Source: Candidatus Firestoneibacteriota bacterium
GTDB lineage: Bacteria; Oederibacteriota; D2-FULL-39-29
DNA length: 64,000 bases
Assembly: GCA_903928075.1 (NCBI GenBank)
Contig: CAIYPD010000012.1
Span: forward strand, 1-64,000
Reading direction: 5' to 3'
The notes beneath the pieces are model-generated. The model had not been told where the DNA came from. It did not search any database and saw only the letters and a program-made list of their open reading frames with translations. Below are positions 12,621 through 25,908 of this stretch, one piece after another; within the stretch, counting starts at the first letter, position 1, and every line of letters begins with the position of its first letter. Made by a program: the position numbers and the translations under genes.

Positions 12621-13988
12621 TTAGTAAAATATATCTCTTTTCCCGTTCTTAATATCTTTAAGACCCGAGGTAACTTGTTCCAATGTAATCGGGTTTTTTA
12701 TTTGTTTCCTGTAGTGTTCTATTACTTTATAGCCGTCTTTCTTTAATTCCGGGGAAGCAAAATCTTCCAAATACTCAGCAAATGTCAGCAGTCCATTTTG
12801 ACGGCAGAATTTGTGAATTTCTCCGGGTTTTGACAGATACATAAAGTCCTCTCCTGTCCGGCCCAGCCTATAGCAAGCAGTACAGAAAGAAGGAAGAAAG
12901 CCGTCTTTCAGGGCATCTATAATTACCTCTTCAAGGCTTCTTGAATCATGAGAGGTAAACTGCACCGAGTCCGTTTGTTTGCCATAGCCCCCGGTGGAGG
13001 TAACTGAAGCTGCAGAGGTTTGAGAAATTCCTATTTTGAAGGCCTTTCTTCTTATCTCCGGGGTTTCACGGGTAGAAATTATCATTCCAGTATAGGGAAC
13101 GGCAAGGCGGAGTATAGCAATTATTTTTAGAAAGTCTTCATCCGAAACAGGATATTCCGGGGAATATTTAACAGTCGGGGCTTCACAAAGACGGGGCACG
13201 GATATAGTATGCGGACCAACCCCTCCGACTTTATCAAGATGCTCGGCATGAGCGATAAGACCGAGAACTTCAAACTTCCAGTCATAGAGCCCGAAAAGAA
13301 CCCCAAGCCCTCTATCGTCAATTCCCGCCTCAAGCGCCCGGTCATGGGCAGTCAACTGCCGGTCATAATCTCCCTTGGGCCCCTTGTGGAGTTTTTCATA
13401 AGTAGGCCTGTGGTAAGTTTCCTGAAATAGCTGGTAAGTTCCGATATTTGAAGACTTTATTTTTTTATAGTTTTCAACGGTAGTTGCGGCAATATTAATA
13501 TTTACTCTGCGGATGCTTCCTTTTTCTGTCTTAACTTTATATATCTCGTTTATAACCTCTACCACATATTCTATCGGATTCTCTTTTTTATCTTCGCCGA
13601 ACTCCAGGAGTACTCTTTTATGCCCCATGTTAATGAGAATCTTTACCTGCTCTCTTACCTGCTCCATTGTGAGCTTGCTTCTTTTTAAAGCTTTGTTGGT
13701 CTGATGAAAGTTACAATAAGCACAATCATTCACACAAAAGTCCGAAACATAAAGGGGGGCAAAAAAGACAAGCCTTTCACCGTAAATCTCTTCCTTTATT
13801 TTTGCGGCAGTATTAAACATTTCTTTAAGAAGTTTGGGATCCTTGAGATTAATAAGAATTCCAACCTCTTCCAGGTTCAAACCTTTCCGTTCTTTCGCTT
13901 TATTAATAACTTTTTGCACCGTCGCTGCATCTGATTCTTTTGTGTTTTCCAAAACTTTAAATATTCTTTTTTCATCAATGATACTCAT
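12621..13988 (-). CDS. hydG: [FeFe]-hydrogenase H-cluster maturase HydG (tyrosine lyase)
   Basis: A radical-SAM enzyme that splits tyrosine to make CO and CN- ligands for the H-cluster. The SAM cluster motif is CVNDCAYC (CX3CX2C). The C-terminal second-cluster motif is CTAC followed by a third Cys 22 residues on (CX2CX22C), which separates HydG from the otherwise similar ThiH. Start set at 13988: it follows GGAAGG and overlaps the upstream ThiF-like stop as ATGA. HydE and HydF are not in the window. The gene lies next to two hydrogenase operons, whose product it would mature. Confidence 0.93.
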   Translation of the reverse strand: MSIIDEKRIFKVLENTKESDAATVQKVINKAKERKGLNLEEVGILINLKDPKLLKEMFNTAAKIKEEIYGERLVFFAPLYVSDFCVNDCAYCNFHQTNKALKRSKLTMEQVREQVKILINMGHKRVLLEFGEDKKENPIEYVVEVINEIYKVKTEKGSIRRVNINIAATTVENYKKIKSSNIGTYQLFQETYHRPTYEKLHKGPKGDYDRQLTAHDRALEAGIDDRGLGVLFGLYDWKFEVLGLIAHAEHLDKVGGVGPHTISVPRLCEAPTVKYSPEYPVSDEDFLKIIAILRLAVPYTGMIISTRETPEIRRKAFKIGISQTSAASVTSTGGYGKQTDSVQFTSHDSRSLEEVIIDALKDGFLPSFCTACYRLGRTGEDFMYLSKPGEIHKFCRQNGLLTFAEYLEDFASPELKKDGYKVIEHYRKQIKNPITLEQVTSGLKDIKNGKRDIFY

Positions 13989-14725
13989 TGTTTTTCCTTC
14001 CCGCATATTCTGCAGAGTGGATCTTTTTTAAATACGACTTTCCGGAATTCCTGTTTTAATCCGTCCCAGGTCAAAAGCTCGCTGTTTAAATTCTTTCCGG
14101 TGCCGGTCAGATATTTTACCGCTTCCATTGCCTGTAAGGCTCCGACAACGCCCGGAGTTGCCCCAAGTACAGGGAATATTCCTTTTGCCGGTAAACCTTC
14201 AAAAATACAAGCCAGACAAAATGTTTTTCCCGGTCTAATGAGCGCAAGTTGGCCGAAATAACCATAAATGGCACCAAAAATTAGAGGCTTTTTCTTCGTA
14301 AAAGCATAGGCATTAAGAAGAAATCTGGTTTCAAAGTTATCGAGGCAGTCAAGCAGGATATCAGCTTTTTTTGCGTATTTATCTATATTTAAGGCTGTTA
14401 TTCTTTCTGTAACGGCTTCAACTTCAATATTACTGTTAAGCGCTTCCAGAGTAACTTTAGCCGAAAGAGCCTTGTTTTTCCCTAATCTTTTACTTCCATG
14501 TACTATCTGCCGGTTAAGATTTGAACGCTCTACTTTATCCGAGTCTGCAATAATTATACGCCCTATCCCGGCTGCTGCAAGATACAAAGCGGCAGAACTT
14601 CCAAGGCCTCCGGCTCCCACCATAAAAACTGTGGCTTTTTTAAGTCTTTTTTGTCCTGTTTCCCCGAAAAGCATTATTTGCCGTTTGTAGGTCTCTTTTT
14701 CAATTTTTGATAGATTCATCTTCAT
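13985..14725 (-). CDS. ThiF/MoeB/HesA-family adenylyltransferase
   Basis: About 246 residues. It has the E1-like nucleotide fold GAGGLGSSAALYLAAAGIG, the DSDKVERSNLNRQIVH segment, catalytic-type LLDCLDNFETRFLLN, and zinc-binding pairs CLAC and CRIC. Such enzymes adenylate the C-terminal Gly-Gly of ThiS/MoaD-like sulfur carriers. It is translationally coupled (ATGA) to hydG, not to thiS, thiG or moa genes. ATG is at 14725 with another at 14719; the promoter puts the RNA start at about 14724, so initiation may be leaderless or nearly so. Confidence 0.85.
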   Translation of the reverse strand: MKMNLSKIEKETYKRQIMLFGETGQKRLKKATVFMVGAGGLGSSAALYLAAAGIGRIIIADSDKVERSNLNRQIVHGSKRLGKNKALSAKVTLEALNSNIEVEAVTERITALNIDKYAKKADILLDCLDNFETRFLLNAYAFTKKKPLIFGAIYGYFGQLALIRPGKTFCLACIFEGLPAKGIFPVLGATPGVVGALQAMEAVKYLTGTGKNLNSELLTWDGLKQEFRKVVFKKDPLCRICGKEKQ

Positions 14726-15000: not shown

Positions 15001-15534
15001 TTATTTGGTTTTCTTTTCTTGTTTTCTGAATTTTTCCAGTATTGCCGGAATCTTTTCCGGAACCAATCTTACAAATACTTCTTCGTTAACCTGAATCACC
15101 GGAGAAAGCCCGCAACAACCAAGGCACCTTGTAATACTCAGACCAAACAATCCGTCAGGAGTAACATCACCGAGTTTTATCTTGAGTTCTTCCTCAACCC
15201 GTTCAAGCAACCTTGCTCCGCCGGCCACATAACAAGCCGTGCCTTTACAAACAGAAATCTGGTATTTTGCTTTGGGTTTAAGCGAGAAAAAATTATAAAA
15301 TGTGGCCATACCATAAATATGCGCGGTAGGTACACCAAGACTCTCAGAAACAACATCCATGGCTTCCCTCGGTATATAACCGAAGATCTCCTGGACCTTA
15401 TGCAAGACGGTCATAAGCGCTCCCTGTTTATCATGCAGCAACTTATGTTCTTTAATAAACTCTTTTAGCTCTTTAATGCCGTCCTGTTTTTCTTTTTCTT
15501 TTAACTCAGGAGCACATGTACATGTATTATTCAT
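15001..15534 (-). CDS. hydC: NuoE-like [2Fe-2S] subunit of bifurcating hydrogenase 1
   Basis: 177 residues. N-terminal helical part, then a thioredoxin-like ferredoxin fold with ligands in CKGTACYVAGG and CLGCCGLSP, the C-X4-C ... C-X3-C pattern of NuoE/HndA. In HydABC complexes it relays electrons near the flavin subunit. Last gene of operon 1, 13 bases after hydA1 with GGGAGGAG ahead of the ATG. Confidence 0.92.
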   Translation of the reverse strand: MNNTCTCAPELKEKEKQDGIKELKEFIKEHKLLHDKQGALMTVLHKVQEIFGYIPREAMDVVSESLGVPTAHIYGMATFYNFFSLKPKAKYQISVCKGTACYVAGGARLLERVEEELKIKLGDVTPDGLFGLSITRCLGCCGLSPVIQVNEEVFVRLVPEKIPAILEKFRKQEKKTK

Positions 15535-15547
15535 CTTCTCTCCTCCC

Positions 15548-17335
15548 CTATCCGATATTCACGGTATCTCTGAGTTCTGAAGGCACGCCTTTCGGACATG
15601 CCGCGTGATAATGTGTATGAAGAAGCTTATGTGAAAGTTCTCCAAGCGGCTTTATCAAAAACTCTTTATAGATAGCCGTGATGAGCGGATTCTCGTGAGA
15701 TTTTCTTATTTTCTTTTCTTCGTCTATAGTGTAGAGTCCTGCAGACCTTTGAGAATAGAGATCCACATCCATAGCTTCCAGGTCTCCCTGCGGATAAATC
15801 TGCCCGCCGCCGCCGATACAGCCTCCGGGACAGGTCATTACTTCCACAAAATGATATTTTCGCTTACCTTCTTTTATTTCAGTAAGAAGTTTATGGACAT
15901 TTGCGAGGCCATTGACTATAGCAACATTAACCTTGGTGCCGGCGACATCAACGACGGCTTCCTTTATCCCCTTCAAGCCTCTTACATCCTTAAAATCTAC
16001 GGAAGGCAATGTCTTCTTGGTAATAACTTCATAAGCGGTACGAAGCGCTGCTTCCATAACTCCGCCGGTTACCCCAAAAATAGGCGCGGCCCCGGTAGAT
16101 TCTCCCATGGGCCCGTCGAACTGCCCGGGTTTAAGTTCACTAAACTTAATGCCCGCCTGTTTTATCATCTTGGCAAGTTCCCTTGTGGTAAGTACGACAT
16201 CAACATCCTGAAAGCCGCTCGATTTCATTTCCGGCCGGGCACATTCGTATTTTTTTGCCGTGCAGGGCATTATAGATACAGAAAATATTTTAGCCGGATC
16301 TATTCCCGCTTTCTTTGCGTAGAAAGTTTTTATAAGCGCTCCCATCATCTGCTGGGGAGATTTACAGGTAGAAACATTTTCTATGAACTCAGGATGGAAA
16401 GTTTCAAGATATTTTATCCAGCCCGGCGAGCAGGAGGTAAACATGGGCAGTTTTCCGCCTGTTGTCAGACGCTTTATAAACTCATGTCCTTCTTCAATAA
16501 TTGTAAGGTCCGCCGAGAACTGGGTATCAAAAACGACTTTAAAGCCCAGCATTCTAAGAGCTGCAACCATCTCGAAAGTTTTATCGGTGCCGGGAGCAAA
16601 ACCAAAGGCCTCCCCGACGGCAACCCTTACGGCCGGTGCAATCTGCACAATACATACTTTGTCGGGATTACTCAGGTTCTTGAAAGTTTCTTTTATTCCA
16701 TCTTTTTCCGTAAGCGCCGCAGTCGGGCAAACCAGCGTACACTGGCCGCAATTAATGCATACACTGTCTTTCATCTCCATATTATAGGCCGGGCCGACAT
16801 TTGTTTTATAACCCCGGGCAGAGATTGAAAGTGCATTAACACCCTGAATCTCTGCGCATACCCGGACGCATTTTCCGCAAAGTATACATTTGTCGGAATC
16901 CCTGACTATGGAGCAGGAAGAACTGTCTATGTCAAAGTGCTTTCTCTCTCCGGCATAAAGATATTCCTCAACCCCGAGAGTCGTCGCTAACTGTTGCAGT
17001 TCGCAGTTATTATTCCTCTCGCAAATCTGGCATTCCTTCGGATGATTGTCCAGAATCAGTTCGACTATATTCCTTCTCGCTTCCCTTATGGCAGGTGTAT
17101 TAGTTTTTACATTCATACCTTCAAAGACTGTTGTGACACACGAGGCCGGGAAGTTTTTAGCACCGTCTATTTCAACAACGCAAACCCGGCAGGCCCCGAC
17201 ACTTGAGAGCCTTGGATGATAGCACAGTCTCGGAATATGTATTCCTATCGAATCTGCGGCCTGCATTACCGTAGAATCTTCGGAAACTTTTGCCGCAATC
17301 CCGTCTATTTTAAGGTTCACCATTTTCTTTTCCAT
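15548..17335 (-). CDS. hydA: [FeFe]-hydrogenase catalytic subunit 1 (HydA, multimeric NADH-linked type)
   Basis: Start at 17335, nine bases after AGGAGG; ATG 17359 is inside the upstream gene. 595 residues: NuoG-like [2Fe-2S] (CYHPRLSSVGACRVC), His-ligated cluster (HPKECQICERNNNC), two [4Fe-4S] (CILCGKCVRVC, CINCGQCTLVCP), then the H-cluster domain. H-cluster motifs: TSCSPGW, MPCTAKK and EVMTCPGGCIGGGGQ. The first has Ser where the paralog at 21534 has Cys (TSCCPAW); this is an accepted variant of the family pattern as I recall it. Catalyses H2/proton interconversion in the cytoplasm. Confidence 0.95.
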   Translation of the reverse strand: MEKKMVNLKIDGIAAKVSEDSTVMQAADSIGIHIPRLCYHPRLSSVGACRVCVVEIDGAKNFPASCVTTVFEGMNVKTNTPAIREARRNIVELILDNHPKECQICERNNNCELQQLATTLGVEEYLYAGERKHFDIDSSSCSIVRDSDKCILCGKCVRVCAEIQGVNALSISARGYKTNVGPAYNMEMKDSVCINCGQCTLVCPTAALTEKDGIKETFKNLSNPDKVCIVQIAPAVRVAVGEAFGFAPGTDKTFEMVAALRMLGFKVVFDTQFSADLTIIEEGHEFIKRLTTGGKLPMFTSCSPGWIKYLETFHPEFIENVSTCKSPQQMMGALIKTFYAKKAGIDPAKIFSVSIMPCTAKKYECARPEMKSSGFQDVDVVLTTRELAKMIKQAGIKFSELKPGQFDGPMGESTGAAPIFGVTGGVMEAALRTAYEVITKKTLPSVDFKDVRGLKGIKEAVVDVAGTKVNVAIVNGLANVHKLLTEIKEGKRKYHFVEVMTCPGGCIGGGGQIYPQGDLEAMDVDLYSQRSAGLYTIDEEKKIRKSHENPLITAIYKEFLIKPLGELSHKLLHTHYHAACPKGVPSELRDTVNIG

Positions 17336-17336
17336 G

Positions 17337-20300
17337 TTATTCCGCCTCCTTCTTATCACAGCGCAAACAACGATCGCATTCTTCCATCGCCTGGCTCTTA
17401 GTGTACCCGAGATCTACTTCGGTAAACGCCTGTAAACGCTTTTCCATGCTAAGTTTTATGTGTTTTATTCTATGCTTTTCTTTAACCTCTTTTGTCGGAT
17501 CCAGATAAGGTACTGTTTTTCTCTCACCCTTTACAACATACCTGTCTTTAGCCAGCTCCTCGCCTCTTACGCCGCTCAAGTACCTGTCTATGGAGATGGC
17601 AGCTTTTTCGCCATCCGCGACAGATTCAATAACGGTACCACCGCCGGTCACAACATCGCCGCCGGCAAAAACCCAGGGAATATTTGTACTTAAAGTTCTT
17701 TTATCCACCGCAACGGTATCCCAATCCGTCATAATAAGTTTATCTTTAGAAAGTTCCGCGCAATTAGGTTTGCCTCCTATGGCACTGATAACAATATCCA
17801 CAGGTAGGATAAACTTTTCATCGGTCGGCACCGGTTTTCTTCTGCCGGTAGAATCAAATTCCCCGGATTTAGTATGTAAGCATTCCAGTTCAACTATCTT
17901 GCCGTAAGAGCCTCTTATATTGTTGGGGACCAGGAGGAAATGGAGTTTTGCCCCTTCCTTCTCGCATTCTTCCACCTCTTCAGGTAGAGCAGGCATGTCC
18001 GCCCGGTGTCTTCTATATATTACATGTACTTCGGAAGCACCCAGTCTAAGACAGGTCCGGGCAACATCCATAGCCGCATTACCCCCGCCAATCACCGCAA
18101 CCCGTTGGCCCGTTACAGGAAGATTATGTTCTGCATCTATCACTATAGAATAAACACCTTTTATTTTCTTTATCTTCTCTGTATTATAATTCTTCAGGAA
18201 AGACAAAGACCCCATAAAGCCTAAAAGATCTGTGCCATGTATTCTTAACGGCACTTCTTTCCAGGCGCCAATACCCAAAAACACTGCCTCAAAACCCTTA
18301 TCTTTTAAATCTTTTAACGAGATATCCCGGCCAAAATACACGCCTGTTTTAATCTTAACACCGGCAGAGATAAGTCTCTTTATATCTCTTTCAACAATAT
18401 CTTTTGGAAGACGATACTCAGGAATACCCAAAGAAAGCATACCGCCGGCAATTTTTTCAGATTCATAAACCGTCACTTGATAGCCTTTTTTTACAAGATG
18501 ATACGCACAGGAAAGACCCGAAGGTCCGCTTCCAATAACCGCAACCAGGGACTTGTTGAGCTTTCCTTTGAACTTATCCATTCTAATATCTCTGTCTCCG
18601 GAGGTGTAATCTGCCGCAAATCTTTTCAGCATCATAATGGAAATTGGGTTTTCCATCTTGCCTCTCCTGCAATTAGTCTCACAGGGGTGATGACAGACGC
18701 GGCCGCAAACTGAAGGCAAAGGATTTCTCTTTAAAATAAGTTCAATACTTTCCTTAAACCTATTCTCATGAATGTGCCCGATGAAACCGGGGATATCAAT
18801 ATTTACCGGACAGGTGTGCTGACAGGGCGAAACGAAAAGCTCTCCACAAACAGCTGATTTACATTTTCGCTCTCTGATGTGGGATTCATATTCCTCGCGG
18901 AAATATTTTATTGTAGAAAGCACGGGATTAGGAGCTGTCTGACCCAAGCCACAAAGCGCGGTTTTCTTTATACTGTTGCCAAGTTTCTCCAGTTTCTCCA
19001 GGTCGCCTTCTTTTCCTTTTCCGCCGGAGATTCTTTCTAGTATCTCAAGCATCCGCTTCGTACCTTCGCGACAGGGAGTACACTTGCCGCAGGATTCATC
19101 CTGGGTAAATTCTAAAAAGAACTTCGCAACATCCACCATGCAGTCCTTTTCGTCCATAATTATTAAGCCACCCGAGCCCATGATAGAACCGGCGGAGATT
19201 AAGGAGTCATAATCTATGGGAGTGTTTAGAAACTGTGTGGGAAGACAGCCGCCGGAAGGGCCTCCCGTCTGAGCTGCCTTAAATTTTGCTTCGGTCTTGG
19301 TACCGCCGCCAATATCAAAAATTACCTCTCCAAGCGTTGTTCCCATAGGAACTTCTACCAACCCTGTATTCTTAATCTTACCGGCAAGCGCAAATACCTT
19401 AGTACCTTTAGATTTTTCCGTACCGATAGAGGAAAAGAATTCCCATCCGTCAAGAATGATTAGAGGAATATTGGCCCAGGTCTCAACATTATTAATAAGC
19501 GTCGGGCAGCCCCAAAGACCTTTCACTGAGGGATAAGGAGGCCTGGTAATAGGCATACCTCTCATTCCCTGGATAGAGTTAATCAAGGCAGTTTCCTCGC
19601 CGCAAACAAAAGCCCCGGCGCCAAGCACAATATCTATATCAAAAGAAAAATCGGTTCCTATAATATTCTTCCCGAGCAGGTTCTTTTTCCTGGCAATTTC
19701 AATAGCAATTTTCAACCTTTTAACAGCAAGAGGATACTCCGCACGGATATAGACTATACCAATATTTGACCCGACAGCATAACCGCCTATAGTCATGGCC
19801 TCTATCAGACTAAACGGATCACCTTCTATCATACTCCGGTCCATAAACGCACCCGGATCCCCTTCATCGGCGTTACAGATAACATATTTTACCGGAGCAT
19901 TCTGTGCGGCAACGAAGCCCCACTTTGTACCTGTTTTAAAACCGCCGCCCCCGCGACCCCGGAGGCCGGACTTTGTAATATCTTCAATTACTGTCTCCGG
20001 CTTGTAAGCCGTCAGAACTTTTGCAAGAGCTTCATAACCCCTAACGCAAAGATAATCATCTAAAGATTCCGGATCTATGGCTCCGCAATTTCTCAAGGCC
20101 ATCCGCTTCTGTTTGGAGAATTCTTCCAAATCCCCGAAAATATAGGAAGAACGGTTAGTTAAGAACTCATGGCCAAAATCCGCAGGCGCCGGAAGAATTT
20201 TACTTTCCCTTTCTACTTTTTTCTTGGCATACTCTGCTATTATTTTCTTTATTTTTTTCTCGTCAACATTTTCATATTTCATTGTTTTTTTGCCCGGCAC

Positions 20301-20543
20301 AAATACTTCAAGAGTGGGCTCAACATGACACCTGCCGGCACAGCCCTTTTCACTGATATAGACACCCCTGAGTTTTCTTTTTTTTATCTCTTCCTGAAGG
20401 GCATTAAGGACCTTTTTCGACCCCGCGGCTATTTCGCAGGTTGACATGCCAACGCTAAATCTTATGTTCGCATTCCATTTTGGGATATTGCTCTTTATTG
20501 CTTTTTGTTTCATACTTTTTATCTTCTCAAGCGCACTGCTCAT
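17337..20543 (-). CDS. hydB: Hydrogenase flavin subunit HydB fused to a GltD/NfnB-like NADPH oxidoreductase
   Basis: 1,068 residues in three parts. About 25-110: thioredoxin-like [2Fe-2S] domain (C36, C68, C72). About 145-560: NuoF core with FMN/NADH glycine loop GRGGGGFKTGTKW and [4Fe-4S] ligands C485, C488, C491, C531. About 561-1062: complete GltD-like module with eight cluster cysteines (C561 to C625), FAD loop VIGSGPSGLS at about 669, NAD(P) loop VIGGGNAAMD at about 818, and YRRHRADMPA, the NADPH-type sequence of GltD/NfnB. Usual HydB is about 550-630 residues. The frame is continuous, with no stop or shift at the junction. The fusion suggests the complex handles NADPH as well as NADH. 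First hydrogenase gene after rex. Confidence 0.93.
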   Translation of the reverse strand: MSSALEKIKSMKQKAIKSNIPKWNANIRFSVGMSTCEIAAGSKKVLNALQEEIKKRKLRGVYISEKGCAGRCHVEPTLEVFVPGKKTMKYENVDEKKIKKIIAEYAKKKVERESKILPAPADFGHEFLTNRSSYIFGDLEEFSKQKRMALRNCGAIDPESLDDYLCVRGYEALAKVLTAYKPETVIEDITKSGLRGRGGGGFKTGTKWGFVAAQNAPVKYVICNADEGDPGAFMDRSMIEGDPFSLIEAMTIGGYAVGSNIGIVYIRAEYPLAVKRLKIAIEIARKKNLLGKNIIGTDFSFDIDIVLGAGAFVCGEETALINSIQGMRGMPITRPPYPSVKGLWGCPTLINNVETWANIPLIILDGWEFFSSIGTEKSKGTKVFALAGKIKNTGLVEVPMGTTLGEVIFDIGGGTKTEAKFKAAQTGGPSGGCLPTQFLNTPIDYDSLISAGSIMGSGGLIIMDEKDCMVDVAKFFLEFTQDESCGKCTPCREGTKRMLEILERISGGKGKEGDLEKLEKLGNSIKKTALCGLGQTAPNPVLSTIKYFREEYESHIRERKCKSAVCGELFVSPCQHTCPVNIDIPGFIGHIHENRFKESIELILKRNPLPSVCGRVCHHPCETNCRRGKMENPISIMMLKRFAADYTSGDRDIRMDKFKGKLNKSLVAVIGSGPSGLSCAYHLVKKGYQVTVYESEKIAGGMLSLGIPEYRLPKDIVERDIKRLISAGVKIKTGVYFGRDISLKDLKDKGFEAVFLGIGAWKEVPLRIHGTDLLGFMGSLSFLKNYNTEKIKKIKGVYSIVIDAEHNLPVTGQRVAVIGGGNAAMDVARTCLRLGASEVHVIYRRHRADMPALPEEVEECEKEGAKLHFLLVPNNIRGSYGKIVELECLHTKSGEFDSTGRRKPVPTDEKFILPVDIVISAIGGKPNCAELSKDKLIMTDWDTVAVDKRTLSTNIPWVFAGGDVVTGGGTVIESVADGEKAAISIDRYLSGVRGEELAKDRYVVKGERKTVPYLDPTKEVKEKHRIKHIKLSMEKRLQAFTEVDLGYTKSQAMEECDRCLRCDKKEAE

Positions 20544-20656: not shown

Positions 20657-21307
20657 TCATGCACCATGCTCATTTTTCTGTTTTTCGCCGCGGTGCCTCG
20701 CATTAACATAATAGATAACATTCTCAAGTTCTATCGCCAGACTTACATTATTTACAACCACCTTTTCCGGCACTCTTAGAGTGACCGGAGCAAAATTAAG
20801 AATTCCTTTTATACCCGCAGAGACCAGAATCTCGCTTACCTCCTGGGCAACCGTCGCAGGGACCGCAAGTATGGCGACTTTAACCTTGTTGATCTTGACA
20901 TACTCAAAGACATCTTTTATATTATGTATCTGGATATTGTTTACTTTGCCCTGCTTGGCCGGATCGGCATCAAATGCGGCAACGATATTTATATCTTCTT
21001 TCTCAAAACCACGGTATCTTGCAAGCGCGCTTCCAAGGTTACCGGCACCTACCATTATAACTTTCTGGATTTCGTCTTTACCAAGAATATAATTTATCTT
21101 CTCGATAAGATTATCGATGATATACCCGCCTTTCTTGTTCCCTGAGATTCCAAAGAGCGAAAAATCTTTCCTTACCTGGACCGCCGTAACAGCGGTTGCC
21201 TCGCCAAGATTGTCAGAAAATATCTTAACATAGCCAAGTTCCTTAAGATCTTTGAGCGTCCGTCTGTAACGACACAACCTTTGTATGCAGTTTCTAGATT
21301 CCGACAT
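20657..21307 (-). CDS. rex: Redox-sensing transcriptional repressor Rex
   Basis: 216 residues. N-terminal winged helix (SESRNCIQRLCRYRRTLKDL... TAVQVRKDFSLFG), then a Rossmann domain with VIMVGAGNLGSALARYRGF and AVPATVAQEVSEILVSAGIKGILNFAPV, both diagnostic of Rex. Rex leaves DNA when NADH/NAD+ rises, de-repressing fermentative genes. It lies between two hydrogenase operons, and Rex-box-like sites occur at the operon 2 promoter. Probably co-transcribed with operon 1. Confidence 0.95.
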   Translation of the reverse strand: MSESRNCIQRLCRYRRTLKDLKELGYVKIFSDNLGEATAVTAVQVRKDFSLFGISGNKKGGYIIDNLIEKINYILGKDEIQKVIMVGAGNLGSALARYRGFEKEDINIVAAFDADPAKQGKVNNIQIHNIKDVFEYVKINKVKVAILAVPATVAQEVSEILVSAGIKGILNFAPVTLRVPEKVVVNNVSLAIELENVIYYVNARHRGEKQKNEHGA

Positions 21308-21533: not shown

Positions 21534-23285
21534 CTATCTTATGTAAATCGGCCTTGCTTTATATTCGGTATGGCAGAGCTTGTGTGATTTTTCTCCCAAT
21601 GGTTTACCCAGGAAATCCTTATAAAGTTTTTTCACATAAGGATTTTTGTGTGAACATCGAAGTTCTTTATCCTTATCATCCTGATAAATTGCTGAGCTCC
21701 TCTTTAAACGAAGCGCATCCGTGACATTATACGGCTGACCACCGCCGCCTACACACCCGCCGGGACAAGCCATAACTTCAATAAAATGATAGGGTAGTTC
21801 TTTCCCCTCTTTTTTTGCCTGCCTGACCCTGTTAAGGACCTCTTCTACATGAGAGAGCCCGTGAGCTACCGCTATTCTTATCTTTGTTCCTTTAATATCT
21901 ATCTCTGCTTCTTTAATACTTTCAAGACCTCTTGTTTTTATAAAATTAACATCTTCAAGTTCCTTCCCGGTTACTATATTGTAGGCTGTTCTAAGCGCAG
22001 CTTCCATGACTCCGCCGGTTGCTCCAAAAATAACGCCGGCGCCAGAGTATTCTCCAAGCAGGCCATCAGCTTCCTCATCAGGAAGATTCAAAAAATCTAT
22101 CCCTGCTTGTTTTATCATGCGTGAAAGTTCGCGGGTGGTAATGGTAACATCGATGTCCTGAAAGCCCGAAGCAAACATTTCACCCGATCTCGTTATTTCA
22201 TATTTCTTGGCAGTGCAGGGCATGATTGAGACCATGTAGATCTTGGCCGGATCTATACCGTTCTTTTCGGCGTAATAGGTCTTTGAAAGCGTTCCAACAA
22301 TTTCATGCGGAGACTTGCAGGTAGAAAAGTGATTGATCATATCCGAATGGAATTTCTCCATAAAGTCAACCCAGGCAGGACAACAGGAGGTTATAAGCGG
22401 CAGTTCCCCTTTGTTATGCAACAACCGTTCAACAAATTCTCCGGCTTCCTCCATTATAGTGACATCCGCACCGAAGTTAGTATCAAAGACGGCTTTGAAA
22501 CCCATTCTTCTAAATAGAGCGTAAAGTTTCTTTGTTAGATTTTTACCCACTACACCAAAAGCCTCGCCTATAGCCACCCGGACTGCGGGTGCGATTTGAA
22601 TAACGCAGTATTTATCCGCGTTTTTAAGCGCCTCCCAAACCAGGCGGGTATCATCTTTTTCAAATATTGCACCGGTAGGACAATGCGCAGAACATTGGCC
22701 GCATTTCACGCAGGGAGATTCCGAAAGTTTAATGTCTCCGGCCGGCGAGATCCTGGTATCCATCCCGCGCTGAAGGAAGGACAGCGCCCAAACATCCTGG
22801 CCTTTTTGGCAAACTTCTATGCATCTTCCGCATAATATACATTTTGTAGGATCAAGAACTATAGTCCCGGTGGTGGAATCCTGAGGAATATCTCTTAAAA
22901 ATTTCTTAAAAACATCTTCCCTGATACCAAAATCCGAAGCCATACTCTGCAGTTCGCAATTACTATTCCTGCCGCATTTAAGACAATCATTCGGATGATT
23001 GGAAAGTATCAGTTCAAGAACCGTTTTTCTTACTTCTACAATATCCGGGTCATTGGTGGTTATTTCCATCTTGTCTTCTATCGGTGTACAGCAGGCCCGG
23101 AACATCTTGTTGGAACCTTTTACTTTTACAATGCAAAGACCACAGGCCGCCGAAGGCGGCAGGTCTGGATGCTTGCAAAGTGTCGGTATTTTAATCTGAA
23201 CCTTTTTGGCTGCCTCCATAACGGTGGTCCCTTCTTTTACTTCCACCGTGATACCATTAATTTTAGCTTCTATCATTTTATACAT
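21534..23285 (-). CDS. hydA: [FeFe]-hydrogenase catalytic subunit 2 (HydA, multimeric type)
   Basis: 583 residues, same domain order as hydA1: [2Fe-2S] (CKHPDLPPSAACGLC), His-ligated cluster (HPNDCLKCGRNSNC), two [4Fe-4S] (CILCGRCIEVC, CVKCGQCSAHCP), H-cluster domain with TSCCPAW, MPCTAKK and EVMACPGGCVGGGGQ. All canonical H-cluster ligands are present. AAGGAG precedes the ATG. Last gene of operon 2, directly behind hydB2. Confidence 0.95.
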   Translation of the reverse strand: MYKMIEAKINGITVEVKEGTTVMEAAKKVQIKIPTLCKHPDLPPSAACGLCIVKVKGSNKMFRACCTPIEDKMEITTNDPDIVEVRKTVLELILSNHPNDCLKCGRNSNCELQSMASDFGIREDVFKKFLRDIPQDSTTGTIVLDPTKCILCGRCIEVCQKGQDVWALSFLQRGMDTRISPAGDIKLSESPCVKCGQCSAHCPTGAIFEKDDTRLVWEALKNADKYCVIQIAPAVRVAIGEAFGVVGKNLTKKLYALFRRMGFKAVFDTNFGADVTIMEEAGEFVERLLHNKGELPLITSCCPAWVDFMEKFHSDMINHFSTCKSPHEIVGTLSKTYYAEKNGIDPAKIYMVSIMPCTAKKYEITRSGEMFASGFQDIDVTITTRELSRMIKQAGIDFLNLPDEEADGLLGEYSGAGVIFGATGGVMEAALRTAYNIVTGKELEDVNFIKTRGLESIKEAEIDIKGTKIRIAVAHGLSHVEEVLNRVRQAKKEGKELPYHFIEVMACPGGCVGGGGQPYNVTDALRLKRSSAIYQDDKDKELRCSHKNPYVKKLYKDFLGKPLGEKSHKLCHTEYKARPIYIR

Positions 23286-23290
23286 TTGTC

Positions 23291-25033
23291 CTACTCCTTA
23301 GTTACAGCTTTAAATTTACAAACATCAAAGCAAAGGCCGCATTTTACACACTTAATCGGATCTATAACATACCCGGCTTCACGGCTTCCCAGAATGGCAG
23401 CCGACGGGCAATTTTTAAAACAGAGCCCGCATTTCTTGCACTTTGGAGGAAGTATCTTGAAATAGATAAGGGCTTTACACTTCCCGGCCGGACACTTTTT
23501 TTCAATAATGTGCTTTTTGTATTCCTCTTCAAAATACCTGATGGTTGAAAACACCGGATTGGAAGCCGATTGCCCGAGACCGCAGAGCGAAGCTTTCTGC
23601 ATAGCATAGGAGATCTTTTTTAATTTATCCAGATCTTCCATCTCCCCTTTTCCCTCTGAAATTTTTTCAAGGAGATGAAGAAGCTGGTAGCCGCCTAAAC
23701 GACAGGGCGCGCATTTTCCGCATGACTCATCAACACAGAACTTAAGGTAAAACTTTGCAAGGTCGACGAGACAGTCAGTTTCATCAATAGCGATCATTCC
23801 ACCTGAACCCATAATAGATCCAAGTTTGCCGAGATTTTCATAGTCTACCGGAGTATCCAGAAATTCCTGAGGAATAACCCCGCCGGAAGGCCCGCCTGTT
23901 TGGACAGCTTTGATTGATCTGTTATTAAGTATTCCACCGCCTATATCAAAAATAATTTCCCGGATAGTTATCCCCATAGGGACTTCAACCAGGCCGGAAT
24001 TTTTTACTTTTCCGGTAAGAGCAAATACTTTTGTACCTTTGCTTTTTTCAGTACCGATAGAAGCAAATTTTGCGCCCCCGCCAAAAATCAGCTGTGGAAT
24101 GTTGGCAAGCGTCTCAACATTATTAATGATAGTTGGTTTTTCCCACAAACCCTTTACCGAGGGATAGGGCGGCCTTGGATGAGGTGTACCTCTTTTACCT
24201 TCTATGGAAGCAATCAGCGCCGTTTCCTCCCCGCAGACAAAAGCTCCGGCTCCAAGCCTGATTTCAAGTTCAAAACTATAATTGCTGCCGAGTATATTAT
24301 TTCCGAGAAGTCCTGCTTCTACAGCCTGATCTATGGCTTTCTGGACCCTTTCAACAGCAAGAGGATATTCAGCTCTTATATAAAAATACCCTTTCGATGA
24401 GCCTATAGTATAGCCCGCAATTATCATTCCTTCCAAAACGGAATGCGGATCACCTTCCAGAACGCTTCGATCCATGTAGGCCCCGGGATCACCTTCGTCA
24501 CCATTACAGATAACATATTTTTCCGGGGAATTCATACCGCGGGCGAAATTCCATTTCATCCAGGTAGGATAACCAGCGCCGCCCCTGCCGCGAAGCCCGC
24601 TTTTTTTGAGTTCTTCTACCACCTGCTCCGGTTTCATTTCTAAAAGAACCTTAGCCAGGGCTTTATACCCTCCGGCGGCCAAATAATCCTCAAGGCTTTC
24701 CGGATCAATATACCCGCAGTTTTTAAGAACTGCCCTCATTTGTTTGGATTTTTTCTCATAAAGCGATTCTTTTATTACTTTATTGCCTTTTATGGTTTCT
24801 TCTATTATTTTTTTTACATCGGTGTTCTTCAGGCCGGTGTAAACTATATTTTCCGGCAAAATCTTCACCGCCACGCCTTTCTCATATAAACCCATGTCGG
24901 CAATTCTTACAACCGAGGCTTGCTCAATTAGATTGGTGTCTCTCAACTCATTTGAGAAGAGAGTGTAAAAATCATTAACGCGATCCTGCTGGGTAGAATC
25001 GGTATCCTTAAGATATATTATTTTCTTTTGCAT
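23291..25033 (-). CDS. hydB: NuoF-like flavin subunit of hydrogenase 2 (HydB)
   Basis: 580 residues. NuoF core with [13 protein letters not shown] (FMN/NADH), [13 protein letters not shown] plus CGLGQ ([4Fe-4S]), and a C-terminal pair of ferredoxin motifs [12 protein letters not shown] and [11 protein letters not shown]. The first hundred or so residues look like the thioredoxin-like domain of HydB but contain no cysteine at all before the LKNCG at the core boundary, so that domain cannot hold its [2Fe-2S] cluster. The separate [2Fe-2S] protein gene just upstream may replace it. NADH oxidation site of the complex. Confidence 0.94.
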
Positions 25034-25047
25034 GGCCTATGTCCTTT

Positions 25048-25392
25048 TTAGTTAATTTCGAAGATATAATCATGGAGAAGTTTTTTATTCCTCACATGAC
25101 GCTCAAGAATAGTAATAGCGACATCTTTGTTAACCCGCCCATAGAGAACTTTTGGCAGGCCTTCCACATTCACTTCCACCAGCGGTTCAACAGAACAGGC
25201 ACCCTGACAACCGCATTTTCTGATATCAATTTCAATATTCCGTTTTTTAGCTTCTTCTATAAGAGTGGCGTATACTTCATCGGCTCCGGCGGCAACACCG
25301 CAGGTGCTCATTCCAACCTTGATCCAGCTTTTCCCCAGATCCTTCTTTAAAGGATCTATTTTCTCTATATCTTCTTTTGTTATTTTTTTCAT
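25048..25392 (-). CDS. Small [2Fe-2S] thioredoxin-like ferredoxin (HndB-like)
   Basis: 114 residues with SWIKVGMSTCGVAAGADEVY and RKCGCQGACSVEP, the same cysteine frame as the N-terminal domain of hydB1 (STCEIAAG... GCAGRCHVEP). It is a free-standing version of the domain that hydB2 has lost the ligands for. Three bases after hydC2, 14 before hydB2, so one operon. Confidence 0.88.
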   Translation of the reverse strand: MKKITKEDIEKIDPLKKDLGKSWIKVGMSTCGVAAGADEVYATLIEEAKKRNIEIDIRKCGCQGACSVEPLVEVNVEGLPKVLYGRVNKDVAITILERHVRNKKLLHDYIFEIN

Positions 25393-25395
25393 ATA

Positions 25396-25872
25396 TTATT
25401 CCTCTTCCTTGACATACTTGGATAAAATATCCGCGACCTCATTCTTCTTAACTTTTCCATAGACTTTTTCGTCTATCATCATTACCGGCGCCAACCCGCA
25501 GCAGCCCAGACACCGGACAACATCGAAATGAAACATCGAGTCCTTTGTGGTCTGCCCTTCTTTGATATGCAAAATTTTCTCTACCTCTTCAATTAATGAG
25601 GAAGCATCTCTTAAATAACAAGCTGTTCCCATACACACAGAGACATTGTGTTTTCCCGGTGGTTCAAGTTTAAAATAATTGTAAAAGGTAATTACTTCAT
25701 AGATCCTTGCCAGAGGCACATCAAGAAGCCGGGAAAGTTTAAGAGAGGTGTCTCTGGGTACATAGCCATAAATGTTCTCTATGCTATGAAGAATCATTAT
25801 CAGGTTACCTTTCTTACTTTTCCACTTCTTGACAAGCCCTTCTAAATCTGCCTGCAGCCTATCTTTTTTCAT
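25396..25872 (-). CDS. hydC: NuoE-like [2Fe-2S] subunit of hydrogenase 2
   Basis: 158 residues. NuoE pattern with helical N-terminus and ligands in CMGTACYLRD and CLGCCGLAP. First gene of operon 2. Its start is 19 bases from a strong Rex-box-like operator. Paralogous to hydC1 with the same core blocks (YGYVPRD, YEVITFYNYF). Confidence 0.92.
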   Translation of the reverse strand: MKKDRLQADLEGLVKKWKSKKGNLIMILHSIENIYGYVPRDTSLKLSRLLDVPLARIYEVITFYNYFKLEPPGKHNVSVCMGTACYLRDASSLIEEVEKILHIKEGQTTKDSMFHFDVVRCLGCCGLAPVMMIDEKVYGKVKKNEVADILSKYVKEEE

Positions 25873-25890: not shown

Positions 25891-25908
25891 ATGTGACGAT
25901 TTTCACAA
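25891..25908. promoter_or_regulatory. Rex-box-like operator O1 at the hydrogenase 2 start site
   Basis: ATGTGA-cgattt-TCACAA: read on the minus strand TTGTGA-n6-TCACAT, matching the Rex consensus (TTGTGA-n6-TCACAA) in 11 of 12 fixed bases. It touches the -10 and covers the predicted transcription start, an ideal place for repression. Confidence 0.75.

Follow-up and report, generated by a model that had tools for sequence, protein, structure and literature searches.

A conserved HydB-GltD fusion, the probable electron-exit subunit of an [FeFe] hydrogenase linked to NADP(H)

The first 64,000 nucleotides of contig CAIYPD010000012.1 (assembly GCA_903928075.1), from a Candidatus Firestoneibacteriota bacterium, were analyzed as a single window. 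The minus strand carries genes for [FeFe] hydrogenases in the order hydC2, a thioredoxin-like (Trx) subunit, hydB2, hydA2, rex, a fused gene, hydA1, hydC1, a thiF-like gene and hydG. The product of the fused gene is our subject. A preliminary description of this DNA had recorded one continuous frame of 1,068 residues, without its strand, in which a HydB (NuoF-like) subunit is joined to a complete GltD module of the NADPH type, and this is borne out. The frame (17337-20543, minus strand) starts with ATG and contains no internal stop codon. Pfam identifies Complex1_51K at residues 189-360 (5.7e-41) and NADH_4Fe-4S at 471-555 (PF10589, 3.5e-36), followed in the C-terminal half by Fer4_20 at 562-647 and Pyr_redox_2 at 667-976 (PF07992, 1.5e-29). 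The flavin adenine dinucleotide (FAD) loop GSGPSG, the NAD(P) loop GGGNAA and the sequence YRRHRADMPA are all present.

Reading from the N-terminus, a thioredoxin-like domain (residues ~27-106, 20226-20465) with Cys36, Cys68 and Cys72 aligns with the N-termini of HydB and StnB. It is followed by the flavin mononucleotide (FMN)- and NAD-binding core of NuoF/HydB (residues ~140-470, 19134-20126), matched to chains 7q4v_B, 9bov_B and 8oh5_B, and by the NADH_4Fe-4S domain (18879-19133) with the B1/N3 cluster ligands C485, C488, C491 and C531. C468, H555, C561 and C566 (18846-19142) provide the three cysteines and one histidine described for the zinc (or B2 cluster) hinge (PMC8880783, PMC9499530). 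Beyond the hinge lies a GltD-type [4Fe-4S] domain that aligns with StnC and NfnL (residues ~569-650, 18594-18839; C574, C578, C617, C621, C625 and K640). Next come the GltD-type Rossmann domains for FAD and NADP(H) (residues ~660-992, 17568-18566), which include YRRHRADMPA and match 5jca_L, 9bov_A and 8oh5_C. The chain ends in a permuted segment containing C1059 and C1062 (17355-17447).

The hinge is where the fusion departs from other HydB proteins. The B1 and hinge ligands are retained as in unfused HydBs and are invariant across 48 aligned fusions. Immediately after the pair C561/C566 the alignment parts, HydB continuing into a ferredoxin-like 2x[4Fe-4S] domain and the fusion into GltD. This C-terminal dicluster (B3/B4) is found in none of the 48 aligned fusions, while 25 of 28 unfused HydB matches keep it. 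In the HydABC complex of Thermotoga maritima the domain is a mobile "bridge" attached at the zinc hinge; it is common to all characterised bifurcating [FeFe] hydrogenases and is taken as the ferredoxin site (PMC9499530, PMC10482914). It also belongs to the invariant six-cluster core of BfuBC (PMC9304861). By this comparison the fusion is an exchange of the ferredoxin-reducing bridge for GltD, made exactly at the zinc hinge of HydB. The FMN- and NAD-binding residues of the NuoF core are conserved across the fusions, and an NADP-type YRRxxxxMPA-like motif is present in 48 of 48.

The GltD module is of the StnC type. It aligns with StnC (9bov_A, 8oh5_C) through its C-terminus, whereas its last 40 residues match the N-terminus of NfnL, appearing as a second domain match to residues 7-46 of 5jca_L. 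The domain is thus circularly permuted relative to NfnB, and for this reason its last two cysteines, C1059 and C1062, lie at the C-terminus. The preliminary description counted eight cluster cysteines; seven are conserved (574, 578, 617, 621, 625, 1059 and 1062), but C613 is not conserved across the fusions, and the eighth ligand position is occupied by Lys640 rather than a cysteine. Lys640 aligns with Lys170 of StnC, an unusual ligand of the FAD-proximal cluster that is strictly conserved in StnC; NfnB has glutamate at this position. A second group within the alignment of 48 fusions has histidine there. The FAD of StnC is reported to be non-bifurcating so that, given a lysine of the same type, the GltD of the fusion should be a non-bifurcating dock for NADP(H). 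This leaves the earlier suggestion of a merged bifurcating hydrogenase and transhydrogenase unsupported.

An AlphaFold2 model of the fusion built with 20 sequences has a mean predicted local distance difference test (pLDDT) score of 83.9 and a predicted template modelling (pTM) score of 0.81. On comparison with solved chains its NuoF half resembles the StnB type (template modelling (TM) score to target up to 0.96), and its GltD half resembles StnC and NfnL. No solved chain in this comparison spans both halves; the best TM score to the query was 0.49. The gene is under strong purifying selection; in the closest pairs of fusions the nonsynonymous divergence (dN) is ~0.08 while synonymous divergence is at or near saturation, the junction region included. 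A sequencing error hiding a stop codon between residues 540 and 565 had been feared, and is excluded by the open junction in 14 other fusions of the phylum and in at least ~35 from elsewhere that are full-length or nearly so among the matches listed.

The architecture recurs in many anaerobes and is not peculiar to this genome. A search for NuoF and GltD in one chain near hydA, which had been proposed with the preliminary description, found a full-length open-frame fusion in 15 of 45 genomes of the phylum, the present one included. A single scan of GTDB species genomes added at least ~40 further fusions or contigs from more than ten other phyla. This set is a sample, among the matches listed, and some of its sequences end at contig edges; the hosts listed include Omnitrophota, Bacillota, Actinomycetota, Chloroflexota, Thermodesulfobacteriota, Spirochaetota, Planctomycetota, Acidobacteriota, Bacteroidota, Balneolota and others. 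A search of a plasmid collection gave zero matches. Within the phylum an [FeFe] hydA adjoins the fusion at every locus that could be checked on its contig, with one exception (L033), and in other phyla it lies downstream of the fusion in at least 12 loci. No NuoF-GltD fusion with an [FeFe] hydrogenase was found described in the open literature searched; the architecture is commoner than that literature acknowledges.

The partners of the fusion vary. In the exceptional locus (L033, G021:C151, 7332-13661) it takes the place of nuoF between nuoE and nuoG of a complex I operon, with the membrane subunits following, an arrangement that suggests an NADPH-linked complex I. In two Balneolales loci (L063, 4594-9735, and L065) it accompanies a short NuoG-like subunit and the large subunit of an [NiFe] hydrogenase, so that the module serves [NiFe] hydrogenases too; short NuoG-like subunits stand beside it in some other loci outside the phylum. 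In an Atribacteria locus (L088, 4720-7720) separate neighboring frames encode the NuoF half and the GltD half, with HydC, HydB and HydA after them; this may be a split version or a frameshift. The tree of GltD halves is compatible with a single origin of the fusion. In the NuoF tree the fused sequences are scattered among unfused ones, with six to seven changes of label and one clade that is borderline in the approximately unbiased (AU) test (p 0.05); the fused NuoF halves may have had one origin or several.

The hydrogenase subunits follow the fusion directly, as first described. The ATG of hydA1 (15548-17335, minus strand) is one base beyond the fusion stop codon, and its ribosome-binding site AAGGAGG lies within the last codons of the fusion. 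HydA1 is an [FeFe] catalytic subunit that passes the group A6 model (NF040763, 873.7 bits against a cut-off of 765) and bears all three H-cluster motifs (L1 TSCSPGW, L2 MPCTAKKYE and L3). A doubt raised by the form of L1 was dismissed, as HydA1 of Acetobacterium woodii reads the same. hydC1 (15001-15534, minus strand) encodes a NuoE-like [2Fe-2S] subunit (PF01257, 4.6e-49).

Upstream on the same strand are rex (20657-21307), for an NADH/NAD+-sensing repressor, and a canonical hydrogenase (21534-25872) comprising hydC2, the Trx subunit, hydB2, which keeps its C-terminal ferredoxin dicluster, and hydA2. Within 23291-25392, the N-terminal Trx domain of HydB2 no longer has its cysteines; they are carried by the separate Trx-like gene upstream. 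A candidate Rex-like operator at 25891-25908, directly upstream of hydC2, has two mismatches to TTGTGAANNNNTTCACAA, although across the window operator-like sites are no more numerous than expected by chance. On the other side, a ThiF/MoeB-like gene (13985-14725) lies between hydC1 and a gene for a HydG-like H-cluster maturase with radical SAM and BATS domains (12621-14006, minus strand). The ThiF-like gene is shared with the closest relatives (L028 and L029), but the L032 cluster, which is more distant, lacks it. HydE and HydF are encoded elsewhere in the genome. Another locus of this genome (L040, C42, 6892-10873) encodes HydC, Trx, NuoF and ferredoxin dicluster parts as one chain of 793 residues, followed by a [2Fe-2S]-GltD protein of 532 residues whose Rossmann part is very divergent; the genome that holds the fusion thus also has a reduced pair resembling Stn.

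The nearest relative that has been characterised biochemically is almost certainly a hydrogenase of Moorella. According to accounts in PMC13391211, PMC13040438 and PMC11328732, Moorella thermoacetica has two soluble hydrogenases, a bifurcating HydABC and a six-gene NADP+-reducing [FeFe] enzyme, the hexameric HydABCDEF of Rosenbaum and Muller (2024). As related there, the purified enzyme reduced NADP+ with H2 at 8.3 U/mg and gave no H2 from NADPH. In the genome of strain DSM 21394 we found just two proteins with this NuoF core, the canonical HydB and a NuoF-GltD fusion of 1011 residues that is 55% identical to the present fusion over residues 39-1066. The latter is encoded by one of six genes that follow one another (DRTGG protein, HydC, HATPase, Trx, fusion and HydA). 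As the sole non-canonical protein with the core, in a run matching the six-gene enzyme, it can be assigned to the purified NADP+-reducing hydrogenase, to which on this inventory it very probably belongs.

From the domains lost and kept, and from the operon, we infer the cofactors, electron route, reaction and direction of a HydA1-fusion-HydC1 complex as follows. The fusion would be the subunit by which electrons leave an NADP(H)-linked [FeFe] hydrogenase, and would derive from a bifurcating-type HydB by replacement of its mobile ferredoxin-reducing bridge with a StnC-type GltD at the zinc hinge. Electrons from H2 at the H-cluster of HydA1 would enter its iron-sulfur chain, exchange with the HydB core at its B1 cluster and FMN, together with HydC1, and continue through the two GltD [4Fe-4S] clusters to FAD and NADP(H); a route ending there would thus put NADP(H) in the seat of ferredoxin. 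The net reaction would be H2 + NADP+ <-> NADPH + H+. We put the probability that NADP(H) stands in for ferredoxin in this complex at about 0.7. The genome also encodes NfnAB (ferredoxin/NADPH) besides the adjacent canonical HydABC (ferredoxin/NADH), and as these two couples are already covered we count this in favor of an NADP(H)-linked role for the fusion. On the other side, where the Moorella cluster has genes for HATPase and DRTGG proteins the operon in the window has rex, thiF-like and hydG genes, and the connection with the purified enzyme is drawn from the gene inventory of one strain.

The NADP(H)-linked enzyme could take either of two forms, according to the role of the retained FMN site. 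That site might be bypassed, with electrons moving straight between the GltD module and the B1-type cluster and HydA1; the FMN/NAD site would then be a relic or have a regulatory role. The accounts of the Moorella enzyme describe its assay with H2 and NADP+ alone, which favors this version. SfrB-like relatives consist of the NADH_4Fe-4S piece and GltD with no FMN domain, which shows that FMN is dispensable for the existence of a GltD/B1 unit. One of these adjoins an [FeFe] hydA; at this Pelobacter locus (L085, 5707-9760) a protein comprising the NuoF cluster domain and GltD lies directly upstream of HydA, and is possibly an FMN-free NADPH hydrogenase. However, the conservation of the FMN- and NAD-binding residues across the fusions would be unexpected for a relic and speaks against a plain NADP-only enzyme, so we regard the bypass as a reasonable possibility that falls short of even odds.

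The same conservation favors a coupled version, in which NAD(H) at the FMN site would be the second, higher-potential partner (2 H2 + NAD+ + NADP+ <-> NADH + NADPH + 2 H+). This would be a ferredoxin-free bifurcating hydrogenase, the FMN splitting electrons from H2 between NAD+ at high potential and, via the hinged GltD, NADP+ at low potential, so that NADP+/NADPH would replace ferredoxin as the low-potential partner of the HydBC core. We offer this version tentatively, as less likely than not.

The coupled version is compatible with operation in reverse, the enzyme confurcating NADPH and NADH to H2 as a hydrogen outlet in fermentation. The genome has a gene set of fermentation type (canonical HydABC, Rnf and a multi-subunit cluster like pyruvate:ferredoxin oxidoreductase), rex is next door, and NADPH at about -370 to -380 mV can reach protons at low H2 (PMC13040438, PMC9304861). 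Against this, the purified Moorella enzyme is described as giving no H2 from NADPH, although the accounts cited above mention no addition of NADH. An outlet role is conceivable but rather unlikely.

The preliminary description had gone further and proposed one enzyme linking H2, NAD(H), NADP(H) and ferredoxin. In NfnAB the [4Fe-4S] clusters of GltD form the ferredoxin branch, and ferredoxin might dock on them here as it is thought to do there; the FMN core of HydB is moreover retained in the fusion. The proposal is nonetheless supported only in part, because the known ferredoxin site, the B3/B4 domain, is missing from every fusion and has GltD in its place: the link between H2 and NADP(H) survives as the best reading and the ferredoxin arm is unsupported. 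The proximal-cluster ligand is the lysine of StnC, with its non-bifurcating FAD, and not the glutamate of NfnB. In addition, GltD clusters that connect to HydB may be unexposed, and the operon contains no NfnA-like partner. A four-substrate enzyme is therefore improbable. Finally, the idea that two neighboring genes were joined by a lost stop codon or a chimeric contig can be rejected. We found nothing in its favor; about 50 independent intact fusions speak against it, and 14 other fusions in the same phylum and at least ~40 elsewhere share the junction with open frames.

The architecture is real, conserved and well-delimited, and very probably of a kind that has already been purified. It bears on a debated question, namely how one FMN suffices for bifurcation by HydBC, and whether bifurcation as such requires the bridge domain or the bridge just passes electrons to ferredoxin. 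In dozens of lineages the bridge has been exchanged naturally, at this hinge, for a module that handles NADP(H), with [FeFe] hydrogenase, [NiFe] hydrogenase and complex I partners. Comparison of the fused enzyme with its canonical neighbor, both encoded in this operon region, would probe the role of the bridge. For annotation, the fusion marks those 'bifurcating hydrogenases' that are better modelled with NADP as a partner.

Like the Moorella cluster, the operon in the window places a NuoF-GltD fusion together with HydA and HydC. Trx is a protein of its own in Moorella, while here there is no separate Trx gene before the fusion, and the NuoF halves of the two fusions fall in different parts of the NuoF tree. 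With the bifurcating HydABC/Bfu family (T. maritima, A. woodii and T. kivui) the complex shares the NuoF-type FMN/NAD core, the B1 and zinc/B2 hinge ligands, a NuoE-like partner (BfuC/HydC) and a HydA with H-cluster motifs; it differs in having GltD in place of the C-terminal B3/B4 ferredoxin domain.

The preliminary comparison with the Sporomusa-type Stn complex is imperfect. The Stn (Nfn-Bfu) complexes of Sporomusa ovata, Caldicellulosiruptor and T. sibiricus do contain the same kinds of module. Among solved structures the GltD half is closest to 9bov_A/8oh5_C and the NuoF half to 9bov_B/8oh5_B, and lysine occupies the C7 ligand position at the FAD-proximal cluster in both systems. The placement is different, however. 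In Stn the GltD is on the NuoG-like (BfuA) subunit, on the input side, whereas here it is on the NuoF subunit, on the output side, and the equivalent of BfuA is HydA1. StnB keeps its ferredoxin domain, and Stn has no H-cluster. NfnAB (NfnSL) shares the GltD fold together with its FAD, NADP(H) and pair of [4Fe-4S] clusters, but in the present system the operon has no gene for the PyrK-like NfnA, lysine stands for glutamate at the proximal cluster and the GltD domain is circularly permuted. SfrB-type proteins (in the neighborhood of NCBIfam PRK12771) have the NADH_4Fe-4S piece fused to a permuted GltD as in the fusion, but without the FMN/NAD-binding NuoF core that the fusion retains.

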